From the NCBI GenBank assembly GCA_023150055.1, contig JAKLLP010000015.1, positions 1 through 14,941 of the forward strand: a stretch of 14,941 nt of DNA. Reading direction: 5' to 3'. Both the position numbers and the translations under genes were made by a program. Origin of the DNA: Gammaproteobacteria bacterium. GTDB lineage: Bacteria > Pseudomonadota > Gammaproteobacteria > Steroidobacterales > GCA-2729495. The notes beneath the pieces are model-generated. The model was not told the DNA's origin. It saw only the letters and a list, made by a program, of their open reading frames with translations, and made no database searches. This document shows positions 3,793-14,941 of this stretch, in pieces (the first letter of the stretch is position 1; each line of letters opens with the position of its first letter).

Positions 3793-4842
3793 GTGATCAA
3801 GACTCGTTTGCGCCGATGGCCGGGCGCCCGTGCTGCTATAACGCTGTTTGCCGTGCTCGCCTCGTGGGCCGGACTCGCGGCACCACCACCCGGGCACATA
3901 CCCCCAGGGTTCCAACGCGTGTGGGAGGTGCAGGAGCGCCACCAGCAGGGCCTGCTCAAGCGCAATGGTGTCGTCGGCGTGGCGCTCGGTGAGGATGCCG
4001 AGGGACGGCCGGTGCTGCAGATCCTCACCGAAAGGCCAGGAATTGCCGGCCTGCCTGCAGTGCTCGACAACGAGCGCGTGCAGGTCCTCGTCACGGGCCG
4101 GTTCAGTTCCGGTGAACTTGCCGAGCCACAGGCTGGCGCCAGTTCTCCCAGGGAGCGCTGGCCGCGGCCGGTGCCCATCGGGGTTTCGATCGCGCACCAG
4201 GACGTAACGGCCGGCACGATCGGCTGCCAGCTCTGGCAGTCTGGCGGCTGCCACACCACTTTCTTCGTACTGAGCAACAACCACGTGCTCGCCAATGCGA
4301 ACTACGCTGCTGGCGGCGAGCCGGTGTTGCAGCCCGGACCCGCTGATGGCGGTGTGCTGCCAGGCGACCAGCTCGGCCTGCTCGCCGATTTCGAGCCGAT
4401 CGAGAAAACCACCACGGCGAACAATGTCATGGATGCAGCGGTGGCCTGGGTCTCTCTGGACGACAGCGACTACGTGACCCCTCCCGATGGCTATGGCGCA
4501 CCGCGCATGAGCGTCCTCACGCCGACGGTCAACCTGCCGGTCAAGAAGTACGGCCGCACCACGCGCATGACCACCGGGCGGGTCAGCTCCATCAATGCCA
4601 TCGTGCACGTGAGCTACACCGGCGGCACCGCACAGTTCGTGCAGCAGTTCATCGTGCTCGGCGACAACAATGCGCCTTTTTCGAAAGCGGGCGACTCCGG
4701 CTCTCTGGTGGTGCACTCTGGCGGCACCAACGACCGCAAGACCGTCGGCCTGCTGTTCGCAGGCTCGGGCAACTACTCGGCAGTCAACCCGATCACGCCG
4801 ATCCTGCAGCGCTTCGGCGCGAACATCAGCGGTGACCCCTGA
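3793..4842 (+). CDS. Exported trypsin-fold serine protease, Nal1-like
   Basis: The 349-residue protein starts at GTG with AGGAAGGG nine bases upstream. A signal peptide fills about residues 1-30 (LAA end). Residues 45-105 form a small domain with the pattern GVVGVALGEDAEGRP ... LPAVL ... VLVTGRF. A chymotrypsin-like core follows, with a recognisable triad: H164 in SNNHVLA, D214 in VMDAAVAWV and S302 in KAGDSGSLVV. C145 and C153 could form a disulfide. It should act in the periplasm or outside the cell. The layout matches bacterial Nal1-type peptidases, for which substrates are generally unknown. The gene after it lies in the same reading frame and repeats the N-terminal small domain, which suggests a functional pair or a broken fusion. 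The intergenic space of about 270 bp to the left gene holds no clear promoter match. Confidence 0.85.
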   Translation: MIKTRLRRWPGARAAITLFAVLASWAGLAAPPPGHIPPGFQRVWEVQERHQQGLLKRNGVVGVALGEDAEGRPVLQILTERPGIAGLPAVLDNERVQVLVTGRFSSGELAEPQAGASSPRERWPRPVPIGVSIAHQDVTAGTIGCQLWQSGGCHTTFFVLSNNHVLANANYAAGGEPVLQPGPADGGVLPGDQLGLLADFEPIEKTTTANNVMDAAVAWVSLDDSDYVTPPDGYGAPRMSVLTPTVNLPVKKYGRTTRMTTGRVSSINAIVHVSYTGGTAQFVQQFIVLGDNNAPFSKAGDSGSLVVHSGGTNDRKTVGLLFAGSGNYSAVNPITPILQRFGANISGDP

Positions 4843-5160: not shown

Positions 5161-6156
5161 ATGAACAGCAATGCAACTCCGCCCGGTATACCGGTCAGCG
5201 CAGTCGTGATCGGCGTGGACGACCTGGACGCCTCGCTCAAATTCTATGCCGGCACGCTCGGCCTCGAGGTGGCCGAGAGCAGTACCTGGAGTGGGCCTGA
5301 TTTCGAACGCTACTGGCAGCTGCCGGCTGGAGCGTGCGCGCGGTGCGCGTTTCTCGGGCACGGCGCCGATCCCGTCGGCCGGATTCAACTCCTGCAGTTC
5401 AATGCCACGAAGCGCAAGCGCGTCCGGCCGCCCGATATACGTCGCGCCGTCGGCCTGTTCAACCTGAACATCTACGCGAGCGACATCAGGAGCGATTACC
5501 AGCGCATCAGCGCACAGGGGTTCCGGTTCTGGAGCGAGCCCGCCCACAACAAGTTTGGCCCGGTGGTAGGCGAAACGATGGAGGCTTCTTTCGACGCCCC
5601 GGACGGGGTCGTGATCAATCTCATCCAGCTACTGACCGAAGACCCGAAGACCGTGATCGGACGCATCGTCAGCTTCGTTTCCCGCTACGGGCGTACGTCC
5701 ACCGGCTTTACCTCGGTCGTCACCACCGCTCACACGGTGGCTGACATGGAAAGAGCCCTCGCCTTCTACTACGGGCCGCTGCACATGACGCTGTTCATCG
5801 AATCCGTGCTGCAGGGTGCGGAGACCAACCGGGCGCTCAGCCTGCCCGCCGAAGCGAAGACGCGCAGCGTCATCGTCCAGGGCGAGCACGAGTACGGCAA
5901 GATCGCGCTCGCTTCCGCCATGAATTACGAGCTTCCGAGCCTGACGGCAGACGCTGTGCCACCCAATATCGGCTACCTCGCGCAGTCGTTCCAGGTGCCG
6001 GATCTCCAGGAGACCGCCAAGGCATGCGCGGCGGTTGGCGCAGCAACGTTTTCGGGTCCCGTGGAGATCGATCTGCCGGGCCGGGTGCGCTGCGCCGCGA
6101 TGATCGTCCACACCAACGGAAGCGGCGCGCTGCAGGAGTTGTTCCAACAGCTCTAG
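5161..6156 (+). CDS. Two-domain VOC (glyoxalase/dioxygenase-fold) protein
   Basis: The 331-residue protein begins at ATG with GAAGGA five bases upstream. It has two copies of the vicinal-oxygen-chelate fold. The first (about residues 11-155) opens with VSAVVIGVDDLDASLKFYAG and TLGLEV. The second (about 180-328) opens with the parallel segment TSVVTTAHTVADMERALAFY. Family members include glyoxalase I, extradiol dioxygenases and antibiotic-sequestering proteins. I cannot assign metal ligands or a substrate confidently, so neither a ring-cleaving nor a lyase role should be assumed. There is no signal peptide, so it is cytoplasmic. A TAGAAT at 5113-5118 could be a -10 box but has no good -35. Its stop codon overlaps that of the opposite-strand RND permease by four bases. 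Confidence 0.8.
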   Translation: MNSNATPPGIPVSAVVIGVDDLDASLKFYAGTLGLEVAESSTWSGPDFERYWQLPAGACARCAFLGHGADPVGRIQLLQFNATKRKRVRPPDIRRAVGLFNLNIYASDIRSDYQRISAQGFRFWSEPAHNKFGPVVGETMEASFDAPDGVVINLIQLLTEDPKTVIGRIVSFVSRYGRTSTGFTSVVTTAHTVADMERALAFYYGPLHMTLFIESVLQGAETNRALSLPAEAKTRSVIVQGEHEYGKIALASAMNYELPSLTADAVPPNIGYLAQSFQVPDLQETAKACAAVGAATFSGPVEIDLPGRVRCAAMIVHTNGSGALQELFQQL

Positions 6157-9100
6157 GACTGCACCGCGACGGCCGCAACGCGCTCCCGCGCGAGCAGCAG
6201 GTACATTGCAGGGACGACGAACAGCGTGAAGAGCGTGCCGATGCTCATGCCGGTGGCAATCACGAGCCCGATGTCGTAGCGGGCGGCGGCACCGGCACCG
6301 CTCGCCAGCAGCAACGGCACCACTCCAAGGACCATGGCGCCGGTGGTCATCAGGATGGGCCGCAGGCGGATCCCGGCGGCCCTTTCGATGGCGGCGCGCT
6401 TGCCGAGCCCCTCCTGCTCCTGCAGCTGGTTGGCGAACTGCACGATCAGGATGCCGTGCTTGCTGATGAGCCCGATCAGCGTGATGAGGCCCACCTGGGT
6501 ATAGATGTTGACGGTGGCGAAGCCGAGCGTGAGGAACAGAAGCGCGCCGGCAATGGACATCGGCACGCTGACCAGCATGATCAGCGGATCGCGGAATGAC
6601 TCGAACTGCGCCGCGAGCACCAGGTAGATCACCAGCAGGGAGAAAAAGAACGTGGTGATCAGCGTTCCCCTCTCCTGGATGTACTGGCGCGACGTGCTTG
6701 CATAGTCGATCTCGTAGCCGCGCGGCATGATCTCGCGCGCCTGCGACTCCAGGTACTCCAGTGCCGCACCGAGCGACACCCCGGGCAGGGGCACGGCGGT
6801 CAATGTCGCCGCGTTGCGCTGCTGAAACCGTTGCAGCCGCTGCGGCTGCACGCCACTCTCAATGGTGACCACGCTCTCCAGGGGAACCAGTTCGCCATTG
6901 CGGGCGGCAATGCGAAACTGCCCGAGTTGATCGGCGTTCAGCCGGAACCGGCGCTGCACCTGGGGAATGACCTTGTAGCTGCGACCTTCCAGGCTGAAGC
7001 GATTCACGTAGTTGCCACCGAGCATGGTGGCGAGCTGGGCACCCAGTTGCTCCATGTCGATACCGAGCGCCGCAGCCTTGTCACGATCGATACTGACCTC
7101 GGCCTGCGCCCGGTCGAATTTCAGGTCGATATCCGCGAAGACGAACATGCCGCTCTGCCATGCCCTGGCCAGCAATTCGCCCGCGACGGGATAGATGTTC
7201 TCGGCAGGGTCCGTGGACCCGATGACGAAAGCCACGGGCGGTCCGCCGGCCGCACCCGGGAGCGTCGGCAGGGAGAAAACAGCCGACTGCAGGCCGGCGA
7301 CGCCATCGACGAGCGCCTGCGTCTCGGGAATCAACTCGTCGATGCCGCGCTCACGCTCGCTCCATGGGGCGAGCACCAGCCCGGACAGCGACACGTTGGT
7401 CGACGCCGGGCCACGGCCGGGGCTGCCGTTGAACAGGAAGCGGTGATCGGCCTCGGGAATGGTGCCGTAGAGATCCATCAGGGCGCCCGTGTATTGCGAC
7501 AACTGCTCGACCGAGGTGTTCGCCGATGCGGTCGACGAGATCAGGATGATGCCCTGGTCCTCGTCCGGCGCGAGTTCCTGCGGGGCGCTGATAAACATGA
7601 AATAAATGCTGCCGAGGACGACGACGGCAAAAAGAACCGTGACCGGCACGTAGTCGAGCGTGCTGGCAAGACGACGCTCATACGCCCCCCTCAGTCGCTC
7701 GAACTGTGTGTCGAGCCAGCGCTCCATCGATCCGCTGCCAATGTCGGCGCGCAGCAGCCGCGAGCACATCATCGGTGTCAAGGTCAGAGCGACCACCCCT
7801 GACACCAGCACGGCGCCGGCAAGGGTAAATGCAAACTCGCTGAACAGGCTGCCGGTAAGACCGCCGGAAAAACCGATCGGCGCATAGACGGCCACCAGCG
7901 TGATGGTCATGGCGATCACCGGAGAGGCCAGTTCGCGAGCGCCGAGTAGCGCCGCCTCCATCGGGCTCATTCCGGATTCGATGTGGCGCTGAATGTTCTC
8001 GACGACGATGATGGCGTCATCGACCACGAGTCCGATGGCGATCACCAGCGCGAGCAGGGTCAACAGGTTGATCGAGTAGCCCAGCGCCAGCATGAGGCCG
8101 CCGACCCCGATCAGCGACAGGGGAATCGCGATCACCGGGATCGCGACGGATCGCGCGCTGCCGAGAAAGAGAAATATCACCACCGATACGATGAGCGCCG
8201 CCTCGAGCAGCGTCTTCACCACCTCCCTGATGGCATCTTCGATATAGCGGGTACGGTCGTATGAAACAGACGCGTTGAGGCCCGGGGGAAGCTGCGCGAC
8301 GATGTCCGGGAACAGCTCCCTCACGTCGCGGATGACCGTCAGGGCATTCGCGTCGGGCAGGCTGTAAATCGCCATGAAGGTCGCGAATTCGCCGTTGTAG
8401 GCAACCGAGACATCGTAGTCTTCGGCGCCCAGCACGACCTCGGCCACATCGCGCAGCCGAATTATCGCGCCGGCTTCCTCGCGAACCACCAGGTCGCCAA
8501 ACTCCTCCACATCGTGCAGGTCGGTGGCAGCCTTGAGGCTCACCGCCAGCGATTCACCCTTGGTGCGACCGACCGCCGCCTGGTAGTTGTTCGCCTCGAG
8601 TGCGCGGTGGACGTCGCCTGGCGTTACCTTCAGCGCCGTCATTCGCACCGGGTCGAGCCAGATGCGCATGGCGTAGAAGCGGCCGCCGAGTATCTCCGCT
8701 TCCTGCACGCCGCTCACCGCCTCGATCTTCGGCTGTACCACCCGCACCAGGTAGTCGGTAATGCGATTGGCGGGCAGCGTGTCACTGTTGAAGCTCAGGT
8801 ACATGTCGGCGGTGGTTTCGCCGATGGCGATATTGATCGTCGGGTCTTCGCTGCCCTCCGGCAGCTCGTCGCGGACCCGGTTCACCTTGGCAGTTATCTG
8901 GGTCAGAGCATCCCAGGGGTCGTAGTCGAGCTCGAGGTGAGCGGTGATCACGCTGATGCCCTGCAGGCTGCTCGACTCCAGGTAATCGATGCCGTCTGCC
9001 GAGGCGATGGAGCGCTCGAGTGGCGTGGTGATGAACCCCTGCACCAGGTCGGCATCGGCACCGACGAAAGCCGTGCTGACCGTGACGACGGCGCTGCTGC

Positions 9101-9218
9101 TTTCCGGGTACTGGCTTACCGTCAGCAACTGCAGCGATCGCAGCCCGACCAGCAAAATCAGCAGGCTGAGCACCGTGGCGAGAACGGGCCGCCGAATGAA
9201 AATATCGGTGAAGTGCAT
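6153..9218 (-). CDS. RND multidrug efflux permease, HAE1 family (AcrB/MexF-like)
   Basis: The 1021-residue length and pattern are those of the inner-membrane proton/drug antiporter of tripartite pumps. Helix 1 covers about residues 11-29 (RRPVLATVLSLLILLVGL). The first porter region and the second large periplasmic loop (from about 550) flank the central helices (about 335-540). The proton-relay pair is D400-D401 in GLVVDDAIIVVENI, and the partner lysine is K920 in GLISKHGILIVQFAN. These match AcrB D407/D408 and K940. No break or missing motif is seen. The gene starts eight bases after the adaptor stop and is translated in the same operon. The transported compound cannot be read from sequence. 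The outer-membrane channel must be encoded elsewhere. Confidence 0.95.
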   Translation of the reverse strand: MHFTDIFIRRPVLATVLSLLILLVGLRSLQLLTVSQYPESSSAVVTVSTAFVGADADLVQGFITTPLERSIASADGIDYLESSSLQGISVITAHLELDYDPWDALTQITAKVNRVRDELPEGSEDPTINIAIGETTADMYLSFNSDTLPANRITDYLVRVVQPKIEAVSGVQEAEILGGRFYAMRIWLDPVRMTALKVTPGDVHRALEANNYQAAVGRTKGESLAVSLKAATDLHDVEEFGDLVVREEAGAIIRLRDVAEVVLGAEDYDVSVAYNGEFATFMAIYSLPDANALTVIRDVRELFPDIVAQLPPGLNASVSYDRTRYIEDAIREVVKTLLEAALIVSVVIFLFLGSARSVAIPVIAIPLSLIGVGGLMLALGYSINLLTLLALVIAIGLVVDDAIIVVENIQRHIESGMSPMEAALLGARELASPVIAMTITLVAVYAPIGFSGGLTGSLFSEFAFTLAGAVLVSGVVALTLTPMMCSRLLRADIGSGSMERWLDTQFERLRGAYERRLASTLDYVPVTVLFAVVVLGSIYFMFISAPQELAPDEDQGIILISSTASANTSVEQLSQYTGALMDLYGTIPEADHRFLFNGSPGRGPASTNVSLSGLVLAPWSERERGIDELIPETQALVDGVAGLQSAVFSLPTLPGAAGGPPVAFVIGSTDPAENIYPVAGELLARAWQSGMFVFADIDLKFDRAQAEVSIDRDKAAALGIDMEQLGAQLATMLGGNYVNRFSLEGRSYKVIPQVQRRFRLNADQLGQFRIAARNGELVPLESVVTIESGVQPQRLQRFQQRNAATLTAVPLPGVSLGAALEYLESQAREIMPRGYEIDYASTSRQYIQERGTLITTFFFSLLVIYLVLAAQFESFRDPLIMLVSVPMSIAGALLFLTLGFATVNIYTQVGLITLIGLISKHGILIVQFANQLQEQEGLGKRAAIERAAGIRLRPILMTTGAMVLGVVPLLLASGAGAAARYDIGLVIATGMSIGTLFTLFVVPAMYLLLARERVAAVAVQS

Positions 9219-9226
9219 TGCGCCGC

Positions 9227-10336
9227 TCAGGTCTCGGCCGGCTCAGGAGTCGGGTCGTCCGCCACGGGCACGCTGTTGTCGATGCGGACGCTGGCGCCAT
9301 CACGCAACTTGTGATGACCCGCCGTCACCACGACCTCCCCCGGCTTGAGGCCGGAGACGATCGCCACGAGATTGCCGCGGGTCTTGCCGGCCTGCACGTA
9401 GACGCTGCGCGCGACCAGACCGTCCGTCCCTGATACCACGTAGACGGCATCGCCGAAGGGACTGTACGCGACTGCCGCCTGCGGCACGACCACCACCGGC
9501 TCACTGGCAGGCAACTGGACGCGAATCTCGGCGAACATTCCCGGATGAAGTCGCCCGTCAGCGTTATCCAGTGTCGCGCGGATGAGAACGTTACGCGTGC
9601 TCGCATCCACGGCCGGCTCGATGGCGACTATTTTCCCGCTGAACGACTCGCCCGGCAGCGCGTCGACCGTGCTCACGACGGACTGCCCGACCGCGAGGAG
9701 CGGCAACGACTGCTGCGGCAGTCTGAAGTCGGCAAACAGCCGATCGAGGGACTCCAGCCGGACGAGCGCATCGCCAGGCTCGATGTGCTGGCCGAGATCG
9801 ACCAGGCGAATACCGAGGCGTCCGGAGAACGGCGCGCGAATCGATTTCTTGGCGATCTCGATCTGCAGGTTCTCGACCTCGGCCGCAACACGGTCCAGGC
9901 GGGACTCGGCGGCATCGAAATCGGACTGCGGCACCAGTTTCTCGGCAACCAGCTTGCGGGCACGCTCGAGCTGGATACTGGCGAGCCGCAGGTCCGCCTG
10001 CAAAGCCTTCAACCGCGCAGCGTCGTCGGCGGCATACTGCTGCACCAGCAGGTCGCCGCGCTCGACGGCAGCGCCGGAATCGAAATGCAGCCCGGTGATC
10101 TGCCCGTCGACCTGCGCCGTCACATCGACCGCCTGCTCGGCCTTCAGCGTTGCCACCGAGGTCAATTCGACCGGCCAATCCATCGCCTGTGCGGTGGCCG
10201 TCGAGACCGTGACGACCGGGGCCCCGCGGGCGGCGATGGCGGATCTTATCTGGCTATTGACGAAGGCCTTCCAGCCAAAGACCGCGCCGAAGAAAGCGGC
10301 GAGCGCTAGACCAACGAGGATTATCCGGGTCTTCAT
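9227..10336 (-). CDS. RND efflux periplasmic adaptor (membrane fusion protein)
   Basis: The 369-residue protein has an N-terminal hydrophobic anchor (about 5-22) and no lipobox, so it is membrane-anchored rather than a lipoprotein. Next come a beta strand/lipoyl half (QVDGQITGLHFDSGAAVERGD, about 76-95), an alpha hairpin (about 105-165), the second lipoyl half (IRAPFSGRLGIRLVDLGQHI) and a beta-barrel segment ending HPGMFAEIRV. The C-terminal membrane-proximal part follows. It bridges the permease to an outer-membrane channel. Its ATG overlaps the regulator stop by four bases (ATGA), which implies translational coupling; no separate strong ribosome-binding site is visible. Confidence 0.93.
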   Translation of the reverse strand: MKTRIILVGLALAAFFGAVFGWKAFVNSQIRSAIAARGAPVVTVSTATAQAMDWPVELTSVATLKAEQAVDVTAQVDGQITGLHFDSGAAVERGDLLVQQYAADDAARLKALQADLRLASIQLERARKLVAEKLVPQSDFDAAESRLDRVAAEVENLQIEIAKKSIRAPFSGRLGIRLVDLGQHIEPGDALVRLESLDRLFADFRLPQQSLPLLAVGQSVVSTVDALPGESFSGKIVAIEPAVDASTRNVLIRATLDNADGRLHPGMFAEIRVQLPASEPVVVVPQAAVAYSPFGDAVYVVSGTDGLVARSVYVQAGKTRGNLVAIVSGLKPGEVVVTAGHHKLRDGASVRIDNSVPVADDPTPEPAET

Positions 10337-10968
10337 TTCAGCAGGCCGTTCATGATGAGATCGAGGGTCACGTCCACGAAGCGCTCCGGCTGCAGGGGCT
10401 CCGGATCGTGAGCCTGCATGGAGTGTCGCAGCACCGCCTGCTGGTCGAGGGCACCGAGAATCACCCGCGCAACGTATTCGACGTCCACGTCGCGAAACTC
10501 GCCGCTGGCAATGCCGCGACGAATGATCGCGACCATCACGTCCCTCGCCCGCAGGCTGATGTCATGGAAATACTCGGCCGCGAGTCCGGGAAAGTGATGG
10601 GCATCGGCGATCACCAGCTTGTGGATGCCGCTCGACGGCGTGTCCCAGAACTCGAGCAGCAGCCCGTGCATCAGCGAGCTGAGCAGCTCGCGGGCCGAGC
10701 CGGCAAAATTGGCCACCTCGGCCTCGGCCTCTTCGATGCGCGGCACCACGCCCGCCTGGACGACCGCCCGGAACAAGGCCTCCTTGGTCGGAAAATAGAG
10801 ATAAATCGCCCCCTTGCTGACGCCCGCGGCGCGCGCGACATCCTCCATGCGGGTTGCTGCAAAGCCGCGTTGAAGGAACAGTTCGAGCGCAGCCGCGATG
10901 ACCTCGGCCGGGTCGATATCGCGACGCCGGGAGCGGCGTGCGACCTGCGCCGACAAATGGGAAGACAT
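10333..10968 (-). CDS. TetR/AcrR-family repressor of the RND operon
   Basis: The 211-residue protein has an Arg-rich N-terminal tail. The TetR-type helix-turn-helix follows (about residues 22-68: LFLQRGFAATRMEDVARAAG, then VSKGAIYLYFPTKEALF). The C-terminal helical ligand domain (about 75-211) is typical in length but its ligand is unknown. It is the first gene of the operon with the adaptor and permease, an arrangement in which the regulator usually represses its own operon until a pump substrate binds. The start ATG at 10968 lacks a clear ribosome-binding site, and the predicted leader is very short. The palindrome at 10981-10998 is its likely operator. Confidence 0.92.
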   Translation of the reverse strand: MSSHLSAQVARRSRRRDIDPAEVIAAALELFLQRGFAATRMEDVARAAGVSKGAIYLYFPTKEALFRAVVQAGVVPRIEEAEAEVANFAGSARELLSSLMHGLLLEFWDTPSSGIHKLVIADAHHFPGLAAEYFHDISLRARDVMVAIIRRGIASGEFRDVDVEYVARVILGALDQQAVLRHSMQAHDPEPLQPERFVDVTLDLIMNGLLK

Positions 10969-11027: not shown

Positions 11028-11422
11028 TCTGTCGGCGATAACGACAGGGTCAGGGAAGCTCCTGGAACCCGTCACTGCGCCCACCGCACCCCTCCTGCCC
11101 CGGCGCATTGCCGGTTACGCGTGTTCGGCTCGGGTCATCATTCCGCCTACTGACGGCAGGCCGCCCGGTCACGCGAGTGCAAGGCCATCTCGCAGTCACT
11201 CATGCCACAGCATGCATGTCCGTCGCCCGCTCCACCGACGCCTTCCAGGCCGGCGAAAACTTGCTGCACACGATTTTGAACACATCCGCAACGTCACGGC
11301 GGGCAGGCATTCGAGGTTGACAATTGCTAAGAAGCGACGCCGCCCTCAACCCGTAGAATCCGGCTTGTGAGAAGTGACAGACGGGAATCGCCACTTGCGA
11401 CGCCGATCATCAGGAGAGTGAC
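11028..11422. other. Intergenic region between the efflux operon and the molybdoenzyme operon
   Basis: No convincing gene is seen here. A consensus-like TTGACA occurs at 11317-11322 on the plus strand, but no -10 stands at normal spacing. A TAGAAT occurs at 11354-11359, but 31 bp away, so a sigma70 promoter for the molybdoenzyme operon is not established. The ribosome-binding site AGGAG (11412-11416) lies six bases before the large-subunit start and supports that start. No second copy of the TetR palindrome is present here. Confidence 0.5.
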
Positions 11423-14380
11423 ATGAACCTTTCGGTCCTGCTGTGGGGCATTCCACAGGCGATGAGAGCAGCTGCGCGGGTCTTTCCCGTGTATGCAGAT
11501 CGGCTTAAAGAAAAGAACCTGGTCGTGCAGTTCAGGTTACGGGACCAGCCAGAAGGCCGTTGGATCCGGCTCGAGAACGGCAAGATCACCTCGAGGAGCG
11601 GCCTGTACCCGAAGCCCGACCTCGATATCCATTTCAAGAGCAGGGCCATTGCCGAGAGCTTCCTCACCCCTCCTTTCGACCTGCTGGAGCGGGTCGATGC
11701 CGCCAAGAACTTCAAGATCGGCCTCGACGGGCCGGACGACCTCGCCGTCTGGTTCATGTCGACCCTGGCGCGGCTGGAAACGCTGACCTGGAAAGCCGGG
11801 ACCGACATGGGCAACGGGGTCACGCGCTACACCAACGGCACCAACGGCGGGCCGATCTTCGTCTACGTCAAGGACGGCAAAATCATTCGCACCACGCCGC
11901 TTGACTTCGATGCCGAGGATGCGCCGTCGTGGACCATCACGGCACGCGGCAAGACCTTCGCGCCGCCGCGCAAGACCACGCTGGCCGCCCATGCCCAGTG
12001 TCAGAAGTCGATGGTTTACTCGAAAAACCGGGTCCTGCACCCGATGAAGCGGGTCGATTTCGACCCCAACGGCAACCGCAACATACAGAATCGCGGCAAG
12101 TCGGAGTTCGTGCGCATCAGCTGGGACGAGGCGCTCGATATCGTCGGCAACGAGATCAAGCGCGCCAAGGCGGTCGGTCCCGGCGCGATCTGCGTGGCCA
12201 ACGGTTCGCACCACCAGTGGGGCAACCTCGGTCATTACCTGAGCGCCTTCAACCGCTTCTGGAACCTCATCGGTGTCACCAAGCTGGTGCACAACCCGGA
12301 CAGCTGGGAAGGCTGGTACTGGGGCGCGATGCACCACTGGGGCAACAGCATGCGCCTTGGGTGCCCGGAGTTCTACGGAACCGTGGAGGACTGCCTCAAG
12401 GAAGCCGAGATGATCGTGTTCTGGTCGAGCGACCCGGATGCCTCCTACGGCTTCGAGGGCACGCAGCGACGCGCCTGGGCCAAGGAACTCGGCATCAAGA
12501 TGGTCCACATCGACCCGTACATGAACCACACCGCCGCCCACCTCGGCGGCAAGTGGATATCTCCGCGGCCGGGTACGGATGCCGCCCTGGCGCAGGCGAT
12601 CTGTTACGTCTGGATCACGGAAGGACTCTACGACAAGGAGTTCGTGGCAAAGCGCTCCACCGGCTTCGAGGAGTGGAAGGCTTACATACTCGGCGAGACC
12701 GATGGCACGCCAAAGACCCCCGAGTGGCAGGAGGCCGAAACGCGCGTGGCGGCGCGTGAGGTCCGTACGCTCGCGCGCCAGTGGGGCCGGAAGAAAACCT
12801 ACCTCGGCGCCGGCGGCTGGGGCGTGGGTGTGGGCGGCGCCTGCCGCAGCCCGATGGGCGCCCAGTGGGCGCGCATGATGGCCATCCTCGGCGCCATGCA
12901 GGGCTGGGGGCGGCCGGGCGTGAACTTCGGCAACCTGCAGTACGGCGCGCCGCTCGACTTCAGTTTCTACTTCCCGGGTTATGCCGAGGGCAGCTTCTCG
13001 GGCGACCTGCAGTACAGCGCCAATGCCGCGAACAACTACCAGCGCATGCCGCACATCGTCACCATGAGTTCGGTGCGGCAGTCCATTCCGCGCATGTGGT
13101 TCCCCGAAGCGATCATGAATGGCAAGGCCATGGGTTATCTCACCGACGTAGCCTCGGTGCAGGGACAGTTCTTCCCCTTCGGCTACCCCTCGCCCGGGCA
13201 TGTGCCGGTGGAGATGCTCTACAAGTACGGCAGCGCCTCGTTCGGGACGATGGTCGATTCGAACCGCTGGGTGAGGATGTACCAGCACGAGAACCTGAAG
13301 TTCGTCGTGAACCAGTCCGTCTGGTGGGAGGGCGAGACGCCGTATGCCGATGTCATCCTGCCCGCCTGCACCGTGTTCGAGAAATGGGACATCGGCGAGT
13401 GGTACAACGTCGGTGCCGGATATGTGCACCACATGTATTCGATGAACAATCACCGGGTCATCTCGATGCAGCACAAGTGCATCGAGCCGCTGGGGGAATC
13501 GAAGTCGGACTACGACATCTTCCTCGCGGTCTCGGAGCGGCTGGGGATGGGTGCCGTTTACTCGGAGGGCGGCACGACCGAATACGAATGGTGTAAACGG
13601 GTCTTCGACTCGTCGGACATGGCGAAGCACATTTCGTGGCGGCAATTCCTCAAGAAGGGTTATTTCGTCGTGCCCCCGGATCCCGAACCGGCGCGCTCGC
13701 CGCTCGCCAACAGCTGGTACTACGAGGGCCGCAAGAAAGACACCCCGGAGCCCTATCCACTGCCATCCGATTTCGTGGGCAATTTCGGTGAGGGGTTGCA
13801 GACGCCATCAGGCAAGTTCGAGTTCGTCGCCAGCACCCTCAAGCGCATCGAGGACCCGGACCGCCCACCGCTCAACCAGTACATGCCGGTCTACGAGGAC
13901 CCGCAGCGGGACAAGGAACTGGCGGATTTTCCGCTGCAACTCCTCACCCCGCATTCCCGCTATCCGTTCCACGTCATGGGCGATGACGAGGGCAGCAGCG
14001 TCCGCGATATCCGTGAGCACCGGGTGTTCAAGGATGGCCACTACTACCTCGTCGCCCGCATCAACCGGAAGGATGCCGAAGTGCGCGGCATCAGGGACGA
14101 CGACCTGGTCCGGCTGTGGAATCACCGGGGCTCCGTCGTGTGCGCGGCCCAGGTGACCGATCGCCTGCGCCCCGGTGCGGTGAGCGCCTCGACGGCGTCG
14201 GCCGAGTACCGGCCAATGGGTGAGCCGGGCCGCTCGACCGATCTCGGCGGCTGCGTGAACATGCTCAACCCCAGCAAGTCCATCACGAGGAAGTCGCACG
14301 GCATCCGTCCCAATACCACGCTCATCCAGATCGAGAAATGGACCGGTGTCGACAGCTGGAAGCCCGGGGAGGTCGCATAA
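11423..14380 (+). CDS. Molybdopterin oxidoreductase, pyrogallol transhydroxylase-like large subunit with N-terminal SCP2-like domain
   Basis: This 985-residue DMSO-reductase-family protein has no signal peptide and should be cytoplasmic. Residues 1-125 read as an SCP2-like domain (LVVQFRLRDQPEGRW, SGLYPKPDLDIHF, NFKIGLDGPDDLAVWF). From about 133 onward it follows Pelobacter transhydroxylase large subunit (TthL/AthL), as I recall it, nearly motif for motif: GGPIFVYVKDGKIIR, FVRISWDEA, NPDSWEGW, FYFPGYAEG. The expected active-site residues are H263, D293, Mo ligand S294, W295 and Y520 (TthL H144, D174, S175, W176, Y404). Like TthL, it lacks an N-terminal Fe-S cysteine motif. Pocket residues differ at four positions (H271, Y272, V470, G664). 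TthL moves hydroxyl groups between polyphenols without net redox change. This protein may do so on another substrate, or act as a ring (de)hydroxylase. AGGAG supports the start, so the fusion is not a start-calling artefact. Confidence 0.88.
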   Translation: MNLSVLLWGIPQAMRAAARVFPVYADRLKEKNLVVQFRLRDQPEGRWIRLENGKITSRSGLYPKPDLDIHFKSRAIAESFLTPPFDLLERVDAAKNFKIGLDGPDDLAVWFMSTLARLETLTWKAGTDMGNGVTRYTNGTNGGPIFVYVKDGKIIRTTPLDFDAEDAPSWTITARGKTFAPPRKTTLAAHAQCQKSMVYSKNRVLHPMKRVDFDPNGNRNIQNRGKSEFVRISWDEALDIVGNEIKRAKAVGPGAICVANGSHHQWGNLGHYLSAFNRFWNLIGVTKLVHNPDSWEGWYWGAMHHWGNSMRLGCPEFYGTVEDCLKEAEMIVFWSSDPDASYGFEGTQRRAWAKELGIKMVHIDPYMNHTAAHLGGKWISPRPGTDAALAQAICYVWITEGLYDKEFVAKRSTGFEEWKAYILGETDGTPKTPEWQEAETRVAAREVRTLARQWGRKKTYLGAGGWGVGVGGACRSPMGAQWARMMAILGAMQGWGRPGVNFGNLQYGAPLDFSFYFPGYAEGSFSGDLQYSANAANNYQRMPHIVTMSSVRQSIPRMWFPEAIMNGKAMGYLTDVASVQGQFFPFGYPSPGHVPVEMLYKYGSASFGTMVDSNRWVRMYQHENLKFVVNQSVWWEGETPYADVILPACTVFEKWDIGEWYNVGAGYVHHMYSMNNHRVISMQHKCIEPLGESKSDYDIFLAVSERLGMGAVYSEGGTTEYEWCKRVFDSSDMAKHISWRQFLKKGYFVVPPDPEPARSPLANSWYYEGRKKDTPEPYPLPSDFVGNFGEGLQTPSGKFEFVASTLKRIEDPDRPPLNQYMPVYEDPQRDKELADFPLQLLTPHSRYPFHVMGDDEGSSVRDIREHRVFKDGHYYLVARINRKDAEVRGIRDDDLVRLWNHRGSVVCAAQVTDRLRPGAVSASTASAEYRPMGEPGRSTDLGGCVNMLNPSKSITRKSHGIRPNTTLIQIEKWTGVDSWKPGEVA

Positions 14381-14941
14381 TGGCTGCCAAGTGGAACATG
14401 ATCGTCGACGTCGAGCGCTGCAATAACTGCCGCATCTGCTTCCTCGCCACCAAGGACGAGCACATCGGCAACGCATTCCCGGGCTACGCGGCCTCGCAGC
14501 CTGCGCAGGGGCACAACTGGCTCGACATCCGCAGGAAGGAGCGCGGCAGCTACCCGATCGTCGAGGCCCACTTCATGCCCGTGATGTGCAATCACTGCGA
14601 CGATGCGCCCTGCATGAAGGCGGCGCGGAACGGCGCCGTCACCAAGCGCCCGGATGGCATCGTGATCATCGATCCGGAGAAGTCCAAAGGACAGAAGCAG
14701 ATCGTCGAAGCCTGTCCGTACGGTGCCGTCTACTGGAACGAGGAAAAGCAGATCCCGCAGCACTGGATCTTCGACGCGCACCTGCTCGACTCCGGCTGGA
14801 CCCAGACCCGCGCCGAGCAGGGCTGTCCGACGGGCGTGTTTCGCGCCGTCAAGGTCGAGGACCAGGAGATGCAGCGCCTCCGCGAGCAGGAGGAACTGGA
14901 AGTCCTGCAACCCGGGCTCGGCACCCGTCCGCGGGTGTATT
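14380..14941 (+). CDS. Iron-sulfur small subunit of the transhydroxylase-like enzyme, cut by the right edge
   Basis: The ATG overlaps the large-subunit TAA by one base (TAATG), so the two are translationally coupled. The 187 visible residues match the Pelobacter transhydroxylase small subunit as I recall it: GYAASQ, RRKERGSYP, CPYGAVYWNEE, and GLGTRPRVY near the edge. All eight cysteines are C14, C17, C20, C70, C73, C78, C112 and C149. They fit two [4Fe-4S] clusters, C14/17/20 with C149 and C70/73/78 with C112. The Pelobacter protein has twelve cysteines and three clusters. The missing four are at T24 (CFLAT), at the former CxxC (now WIFD, 129-132) and just before C149. The C-terminal domain expected in this family lies beyond the window. 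Confidence 0.88.
   Translation, partial: MAAKWNMIVDVERCNNCRICFLATKDEHIGNAFPGYAASQPAQGHNWLDIRRKERGSYPIVEAHFMPVMCNHCDDAPCMKAARNGAVTKRPDGIVIIDPEKSKGQKQIVEACPYGAVYWNEEKQIPQHWIFDAHLLDSGWTQTRAEQGCPTGVFRAVKVEDQEMQRLREQEELEVLQPGLGTRPRVY

Follow-up and report, generated by a model that had tools for sequence, protein, structure and literature searches.

What is a domain of a lipid-binding type doing at the front of a molybdenum (Mo) enzyme of the transhydroxylase family? The question is raised by the window analysed here, a stretch of 14,941 nucleotides from a gammaproteobacterium (contig JAKLLP010000015.1 of assembly GCA_023150055.1), which encodes a protein of 985 residues joining an N-terminal domain with the fold of sterol carrier protein 2 (SCP2) to the large subunit of an enzyme related to the pyrogallol-phloroglucinol transhydroxylase (TH) of Pelobacter acidigallici (PgtL/AthL; structure 4v4c), which transfers hydroxyl groups from one phenol to another. 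The original prediction, made from the DNA letters and their translations, held that such a fusion was undescribed and pointed to a hydrophobic substrate. We find that the domain fusion is real, conserved and, as far as our searches go, undescribed, and that it marks a branch of the TH family; judged from the sequences compared, it is a shared trait of a broad clade, not an isolated oddity.

The fusion is carried by one gene (Table 1). As had been claimed, its frame is open from end to end behind a good ribosome-binding site, and the relatives tell the same story: the extension was present in 75 of the 80 relative loci fetched (the best 80 of 389), the remaining 5 starting at contig ends, and in 74 of these 75 the matched stretch was free of stops and frame changes. 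The open frame and the intact relatives thus rule out a frameshift at about position 11800 that would separate two genes. The transhydroxylase-type Mo enzyme recognised in the rest of the protein is equally plain, residues 133-975 aligning with residues 4-869 of the Pelobacter large subunit (4v4c_A) at E = 1.5e-279. The domain set of the AhtL-like family (PF21423, PF00384 and PF01568) is complete, as in the Pelobacter enzyme, which also has an iron-sulfur small subunit and which, unlike the fused enzymes, is without the SCP2 domain. The extension, put originally at about 125 residues, measures some 127-129, because Met1 of the TH-clade proteins aligns with about residue 130 of the window protein; in an alignment of unfused relatives, 105 of 120 TH-clade rows have Met there. 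Unfused relatives begin at this point, so the domain was added close to the former start codon. Comparison with 9 relatives gives a dN/dS of 0.08-0.16 and so purifying selection on the domain, which is less conserved than the core (median identity 0.67 vs 0.81) and whose distances correlate with those of the core (r = 0.87; 4950 pairs from 100 sampled proteins). In 21 of 239 fused proteins (P0343, P0344, P0348, P0292 and 17 more), at least 15 and up to 54 extra residues, often hydrophobic, precede the SCP2 domain and are perhaps a membrane anchor.

Table 1. Features of the fused gene and its neighbourhood in the window.
Feature	Coordinates	Strand	Basis
Fused large-subunit gene	11423-14380	+	985 aa, single frame, no internal stop
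Shine-Dalgarno sequence AGGAG	11412-11416	+	6 nt 5' of ATG, read from the sequence
SCP2-fold domain, residues 1-127	11423-11803	+	AF2 model; Foldseek/VIA matches to SCP2; hhalign to SCP2 family
Junction, residues 128-142	11804-11848	+	Met1 of unfused TH proteins at about residue 130
AhtL-like domain 1 (PF21423), residues 143-197	11849-12013	+	Pfam, E = 4.9e-29
Molybdopterin oxidoreductase domain (PF00384), residues 203-706	12029-13540	+	Pfam, E = 1.3e-29
Ser294 codon, equivalent of TH Ser175	12302-12304	+	Alignment to TH
Molybdopterin dinucleotide-binding domain (PF01568), residues 873-959	14039-14299	+	Pfam, E = 3.2e-14
Iron-sulfur small subunit	14380-14941 (cut by window end)	+	PF13247, E = 2.1e-20
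Two-domain VOC (glyoxalase/extradiol-type) protein	5161-6156	+	PF00903, E = 2.9e-12

That the N-terminal domain has the SCP2 fold is indicated by fold and profile-profile tests, both clearly positive. An AlphaFold 2 (AF2) model of residues 1-127, with a predicted local distance difference test score (pLDDT) of 85.9, has its helices (H) and strands (E) in the order H-H-E-E-E-E-H-H-E-H, and the confident end of the Foldseek/VIA fold matches is made up of SCP2-type structures only, UbiJ among them. With hhalign, the domain aligns collinearly with members of the SCP2 family over 97 columns (P = 1.3e-5), well above shuffled and reversed controls, and in a scan of 32 N-terminal domains SCP2 was the Pfam family with the largest number of matching domains (9). 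The best Pfam match of the window's own domain is the SCP2-like Alkyl_sulf_C (E = 0.034, below the cut-off). Single-sequence searches of Pfam, NCBIfam and the Protein Data Bank (PDB) with this domain gave nothing at cut-off, and PDB sequences searched with a profile yielded two weak matches, both unrelated (E = 0.19 and 0.34). PetP (NCBIfam, 7 of 32 members, best E = 0.009) was rejected as a chance match. The SCP2 identity first proposed for residues 1-130 therefore holds by fold and fails at the curated cut-off of Pfam.

How widespread is this arrangement? A search with residues 1-140 returned 136 proteins, the best 120 of them mostly about 985 residues long and 54-84% identical in that region, a set that bears the domain by construction. 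The catalytic part alone of a Zixibacteria relative is a less biased query: among its best 120 of 7009 matches the N-terminal domain, whole or cut, was present in 119, the sole protein without it being a fragment of 773 residues on a contig of 2.8 kb. When Pelobacter TH served as the query, none of the best 120 of 4577 matches had it. The same two-domain order recurs in other genomes across several phyla: by record title, the fetched loci span Gamma-, Alpha- and Betaproteobacteria, Acidobacteriota, Marinimicrobia, Zixibacteria and Sporomusa, and names among the Zixibacteria-query matches add Chloroflexota and Thermodesulfobacteriota. Pseudomaricurvus alkylphenolicus KCTC 32386 and Sporomusa silvacetica DSM 10669 are named carriers. 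A quick IQ-TREE analysis of the catalytic part, with 46 rows and an outgroup of two other Mo proteins from the same genome (one of which was flagged for unusual composition), placed all 24 fused proteins on a single branch (Shimodaira-Hasegawa-like approximate likelihood ratio test 99) that takes one change, the unfused side being resolved only in part; a first FastTree tree with midpoint root has the identical split. Single origin on both sampled trees rules out a recent local fusion, and by these sequence comparisons the fusion has one origin and a wide spread.

Closer to the window, we screened a panel of 60 genomes, its own and 59 relatives. PF21423 and a profile of the N-terminal domain matched the same 38, the latter once each, and the profile revealed no stand-alone copy of the domain in the panel. 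Of the 37 genomes in the window's family 35 have the fused gene, as do 3 of the 23 others; in two genomes (G027 and G010) it is cut at contig ends. Away from these strongholds the gene is rare: in a phylum-wide sample PF21423 matched 2 of 398 genomes, the window's own and one more whose match fell short of the cut-off. One Zixibacteria genome (G481, contig C62) has a second AhtL-family gene about 3 kb upstream of the fused gene (L155 / L084), two related Mo enzymes in tandem, the start of the second gene lying near the contig end. The genome of S. silvacetica (G479) has two further AhtL-family genes with weaker matches (L156 and L157); they look unfused, their frames as printed starting just ahead of domain 1.

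Does the catalytic core differ from that of TH? In the crystal structure of TH, Ser175 is the Mo ligand, and His144, Asp174, Ser175 and Tyr404 are active-site positions. The window protein has the same residues in its PF00384 domain (His263, Asp293, Ser294 and Tyr520). We extended the residue counts to 116 close fused, 119 deep fused and 120 unfused proteins, having excluded 5 of 360 for a length of 820 residues or less. Ser occupies the ligand position in all 116 close and in 118 of the 119 deep fused relatives, with one Cys; His144, Asp174, Ser175, Trp176 and Tyr404 (TH numbering) are kept in fused relatives, and Tyr560 nearly always. The picture is different at Arg153 and Trp354 of TH, presumably substrate positions of the pyrogallol pocket. 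Arg153 is retained in 117 of 120 unfused proteins and is replaced by Tyr or Phe in all close fused relatives and by Trp or Tyr in 116 of the 119 deep ones, and Trp354 is substituted in fused proteins, mainly by Leu, Val or Phe; the window has Tyr272 and Val470 there. Fused enzymes thus mostly carry Tyr/Trp and an aliphatic residue or Phe where TH has Arg and Trp. Phe468 of TH is mostly Tyr in fused proteins, at a place where two alignments differ by two residues. As the catalytic set is kept and pocket residues are replaced, the chemistry has probably been kept and the pocket altered, partly toward a hydrophobic one. From these alignments, the replacement of Arg153 and Trp354 would bear on pyrogallol as the substrate, not on membership of the family. 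A Ser ligand is given for PgtL in a table of PMC10100899.

The neighbourhood of the gene adds to this picture. The ATG of the small subunit, at 14380, overlaps the stop of the large subunit (TAATG), and the small-subunit gene follows the fused gene directly at every one of 75 loci examined; these are the 80 fetched less 5, most of which are truncated close to where the fused gene ends. A gene for a vicinal oxygen chelate (VOC) protein is present in 35 of the 60 panel genomes, 34 of them among the 38 that bear the fused gene. The best copy per genome lies no more than 300 bp upstream of the fused gene on the same strand in 23 of these 35 and within 10 kb in 6 more (the window included); in 5 it is on a different contig or strand, and in 1 the genome lacks the fused gene; one of the 35 copies (that of G038) is only 29% identical. 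Between the two genes the window has an efflux pair of the resistance-nodulation-division (RND) type, named by eye (6153-10336, minus strand), and a TetR gene (10333-10968, minus strand). Clustering of neighbours in 53 neighbourhoods (52 fetched loci and the window), with crude frame calling that makes the counts lower bounds, found MoeA in at least 11 and a NarJ/TorD-type chaperone (PF02613) in at least 8, both named from the Pfam match of a single member; major facilitator superfamily transporters (at least 11) and TonB receptors (at least 9) were recognised by eye only. In P. alkylphenolicus, VOC and fumarylacetoacetate (FAA) hydrolase genes stand beside the fused gene in the opposite direction, and in one Rhodoferax another VOC gene lies upstream of it. 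Context beyond the VOC pair varies, and from its gene content the neighbourhood looks like one of aromatic catabolism. Farther upstream on the plus strand, the window encodes a multihaem c-type cytochrome (1599-2705; Cytochrome_C7 and Paired_CXXCH, unmatched after about residue 236) and a protein with a match over cut-off to Nal1_C, a trypsin-like protease family (3793-4842; E = 1.1e-8).

Building on the fusion, the SCP2 fold, the TH ancestry, the kept catalytic set and the heterodimer gene order, we favour, with a probability of roughly 0.55, a cytoplasmic heterodimeric enzyme with bis-molybdopterin guanine dinucleotide (bis-MGD), of the TH/resorcinol-hydroxylase type, whose fused SCP2 domain handles a hydrophobic phenolic substrate. 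On this reading the SCP2 domain, joined to the front of the large subunit at the ancestral start codon, would be lipid-binding; its tunnel would take up an alkyl-, prenyl- or sterol-like phenolic compound and present it to the Mo site, which would add or move a ring hydroxyl without O2, and the VOC protein encoded nearby in many relatives may then process what is formed, perhaps cleaving the ring. The cytoplasmic location is suggested by analogy with PgtL and the resorcinol hydroxylase RhL, both listed as cytoplasmic in a table of PMC10100899; RhL, likened here by description only, is the other Ser-ligated, phenol-hydroxylating member in that source. The mode of action may resemble that of the SCP2-like domain of alkylsulfatases or of UbiJ and UbiT, built here into a Mo enzyme. 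Passages of PMC5426288 describe SCP2-type modules serving alkylsulfatases on amphiphilic substrates, and passages of PMC6747719 the SCP2 proteins UbiJ and UbiT serving ring hydroxylation of prenylated precursors. In type III alkylsulfatases (Pisa1, SdsA1, SdsAP) the SCP2-like domain is C-terminal and the enzyme is a metallo-beta-lactamase without molybdenum; the window protein had no Pfam match to a metallo-beta-lactamase. UbiJ and UbiT are separate proteins of ubiquinone synthesis, unfused to any Mo enzyme. Steroid C25 dehydrogenase and the catechol dehydroxylases act within the same Mo superfamily, by hydroxylation or dehydroxylation, on hydrophobic or phenolic substrates, but in different clades: S25dA belongs to an Asp-coordinating family (PMC10100899), and acetylene hydratase is the enzyme beside which the catechol dehydroxylases are placed (PMC7028382).

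A number of observations weigh against the favoured reading. We infer the ligand of the SCP2 domain, the substrate and the geometry of the domains; a full-length AlphaFold model from 46 sequences, left out of all fold searches, had a mean pLDDT of 64 and as a model is too poor to place the SCP2 domain relative to the Mo site. The pocket changes are uneven: the residue replacing Trp354 is Glu or Gln in 2 of the 116 close and at least 21 of the 119 deep fused proteins, Tyr152 of TH is His in all 116 close relatives yet Tyr in all 119 deep ones, and Cys557 is retained in 66 of the 119 deep ones. The VOC gene lies 5.3 kb from the fused gene in the window itself and is missing from 4 of the 38 fusion-bearing genomes. 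One metagenome locus (L030) has an in-frame stop at residue 51 of the N-terminal domain (L030:297-299), through a broken gene or an assembly error. As for sequence evidence of SCP2, the window's domain has no Pfam SCP2 match at the curated cut-off, PF02036 matches 9 of the 32 N-terminal domains (best E = 0.0031) and 4 of 43 deeper full-length members (best 0.026) with none at cut-off, no SCP2 chain came up when PDB sequences were searched by profile, and NCBIfam is without any SCP2 family. One might therefore hold that the domain is unrelated to SCP2, a small alpha/beta fold that converged on its shape; we regard this as very improbable, given the collinear profile-profile match well above its controls, the rank of SCP2 as the most frequent Pfam family and the purely SCP2-type confident fold matches.

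A more serious alternative, which we still think unlikely, is that the SCP2-fold domain has lost ligand binding and serves assembly, a dimer contact, chaperone docking or membrane attachment in a TH-like enzyme acting on soluble phenols. The weak SCP2 sequence signal, the greater variability of the domain relative to the core, the possible membrane anchor of 21 members and the TorD/NarJ-type gene near the enzyme in at least 8 of 53 neighbourhoods, scanned in one member, would all suit it, but purifying selection on the domain, its strict retention (119 of 120) and the mostly hydrophobic changes at the two presumed substrate positions fit a ligand role better, and the core has persisted in unfused TH enzymes, which lack the domain. 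O2-free hydroxylation of a prenylated quinone precursor, with the domain acting like UbiT or UbiJ, could also be imagined, since there is a precedent for such hydroxylation in passages of PMC6747719, UbiJ is among the fold matches and the gene is nearly universal in the window's family. This role is highly unlikely, and the co-occurrence test in the 60 genomes gave it no support: flavin Ubi-hydroxylases matched in all 60 (58 over cut-off) and COQ7 in 43, with no pattern complementary to the fused gene for either (UbiU and UbiV were not searched). Moreover, Sporomusa, Chloroflexota and Thermodesulfobacteriota carry the enzyme, outside the ubiquinone-making proteobacterial classes named in that source, and the recurring neighbours, a minority of which were scanned with profiles, showed no gene recognised as belonging to quinone synthesis. 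COQ7 was unmatched in 15 of the 37 genomes of the window's family (G000-G036), and the one-contig genome G007 had no COQ7 match and only one listed Ubi-hydroxylase over cut-off. The handling of a hydrophobic phenolic compound remains our preferred role for the domain; the substrate of the fused branch is probably more hydrophobic than pyrogallol and not pyrogallol itself, and the hydrophobic substrate first suggested is plausible, fitting part of the pocket changes and the neighbouring genes.

The fusion had been called undescribed, and searches of the literature open in PubMed Central (PMC) turned up nothing to the contrary, subscription papers and preprints lying outside that scope: no paper was found that joins transhydroxylase with SCP2, or "pyrogallol hydroxytransferase" with Gammaproteobacteria, and the papers that co-mention SCP2 or sterol carrier protein and molybdopterin or a molybdoenzyme, judged by title or passages, gave none on the fusion. 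Relatives of TH in genomes are read as pyrogallol-degrading enzymes. Thus, in passages of PMC3971608, pyrogallol fermentation in sediment Chloroflexi is deduced from TH homologues (unchecked for the SCP2 domain), and two of our fused proteins (P0014 and P0346) are labelled "pyrogallol hydroxytransferase large subunit" at source. The joined gene across several phyla suggests an overlooked group of enzymes. One might speculate, at somewhat less than even odds, that this is a large and widespread class of bis-MGD hydroxylases in which a built-in SCP2 module draws a lipid-borne phenol from the membrane or a pool, Mo hydroxylates it without O2 and the VOC protein takes the product. If so, many genes named pyrogallol hydroxytransferase would have been assigned the wrong substrate, and the fusion would be a new way to couple lipid binding to molybdenum chemistry.
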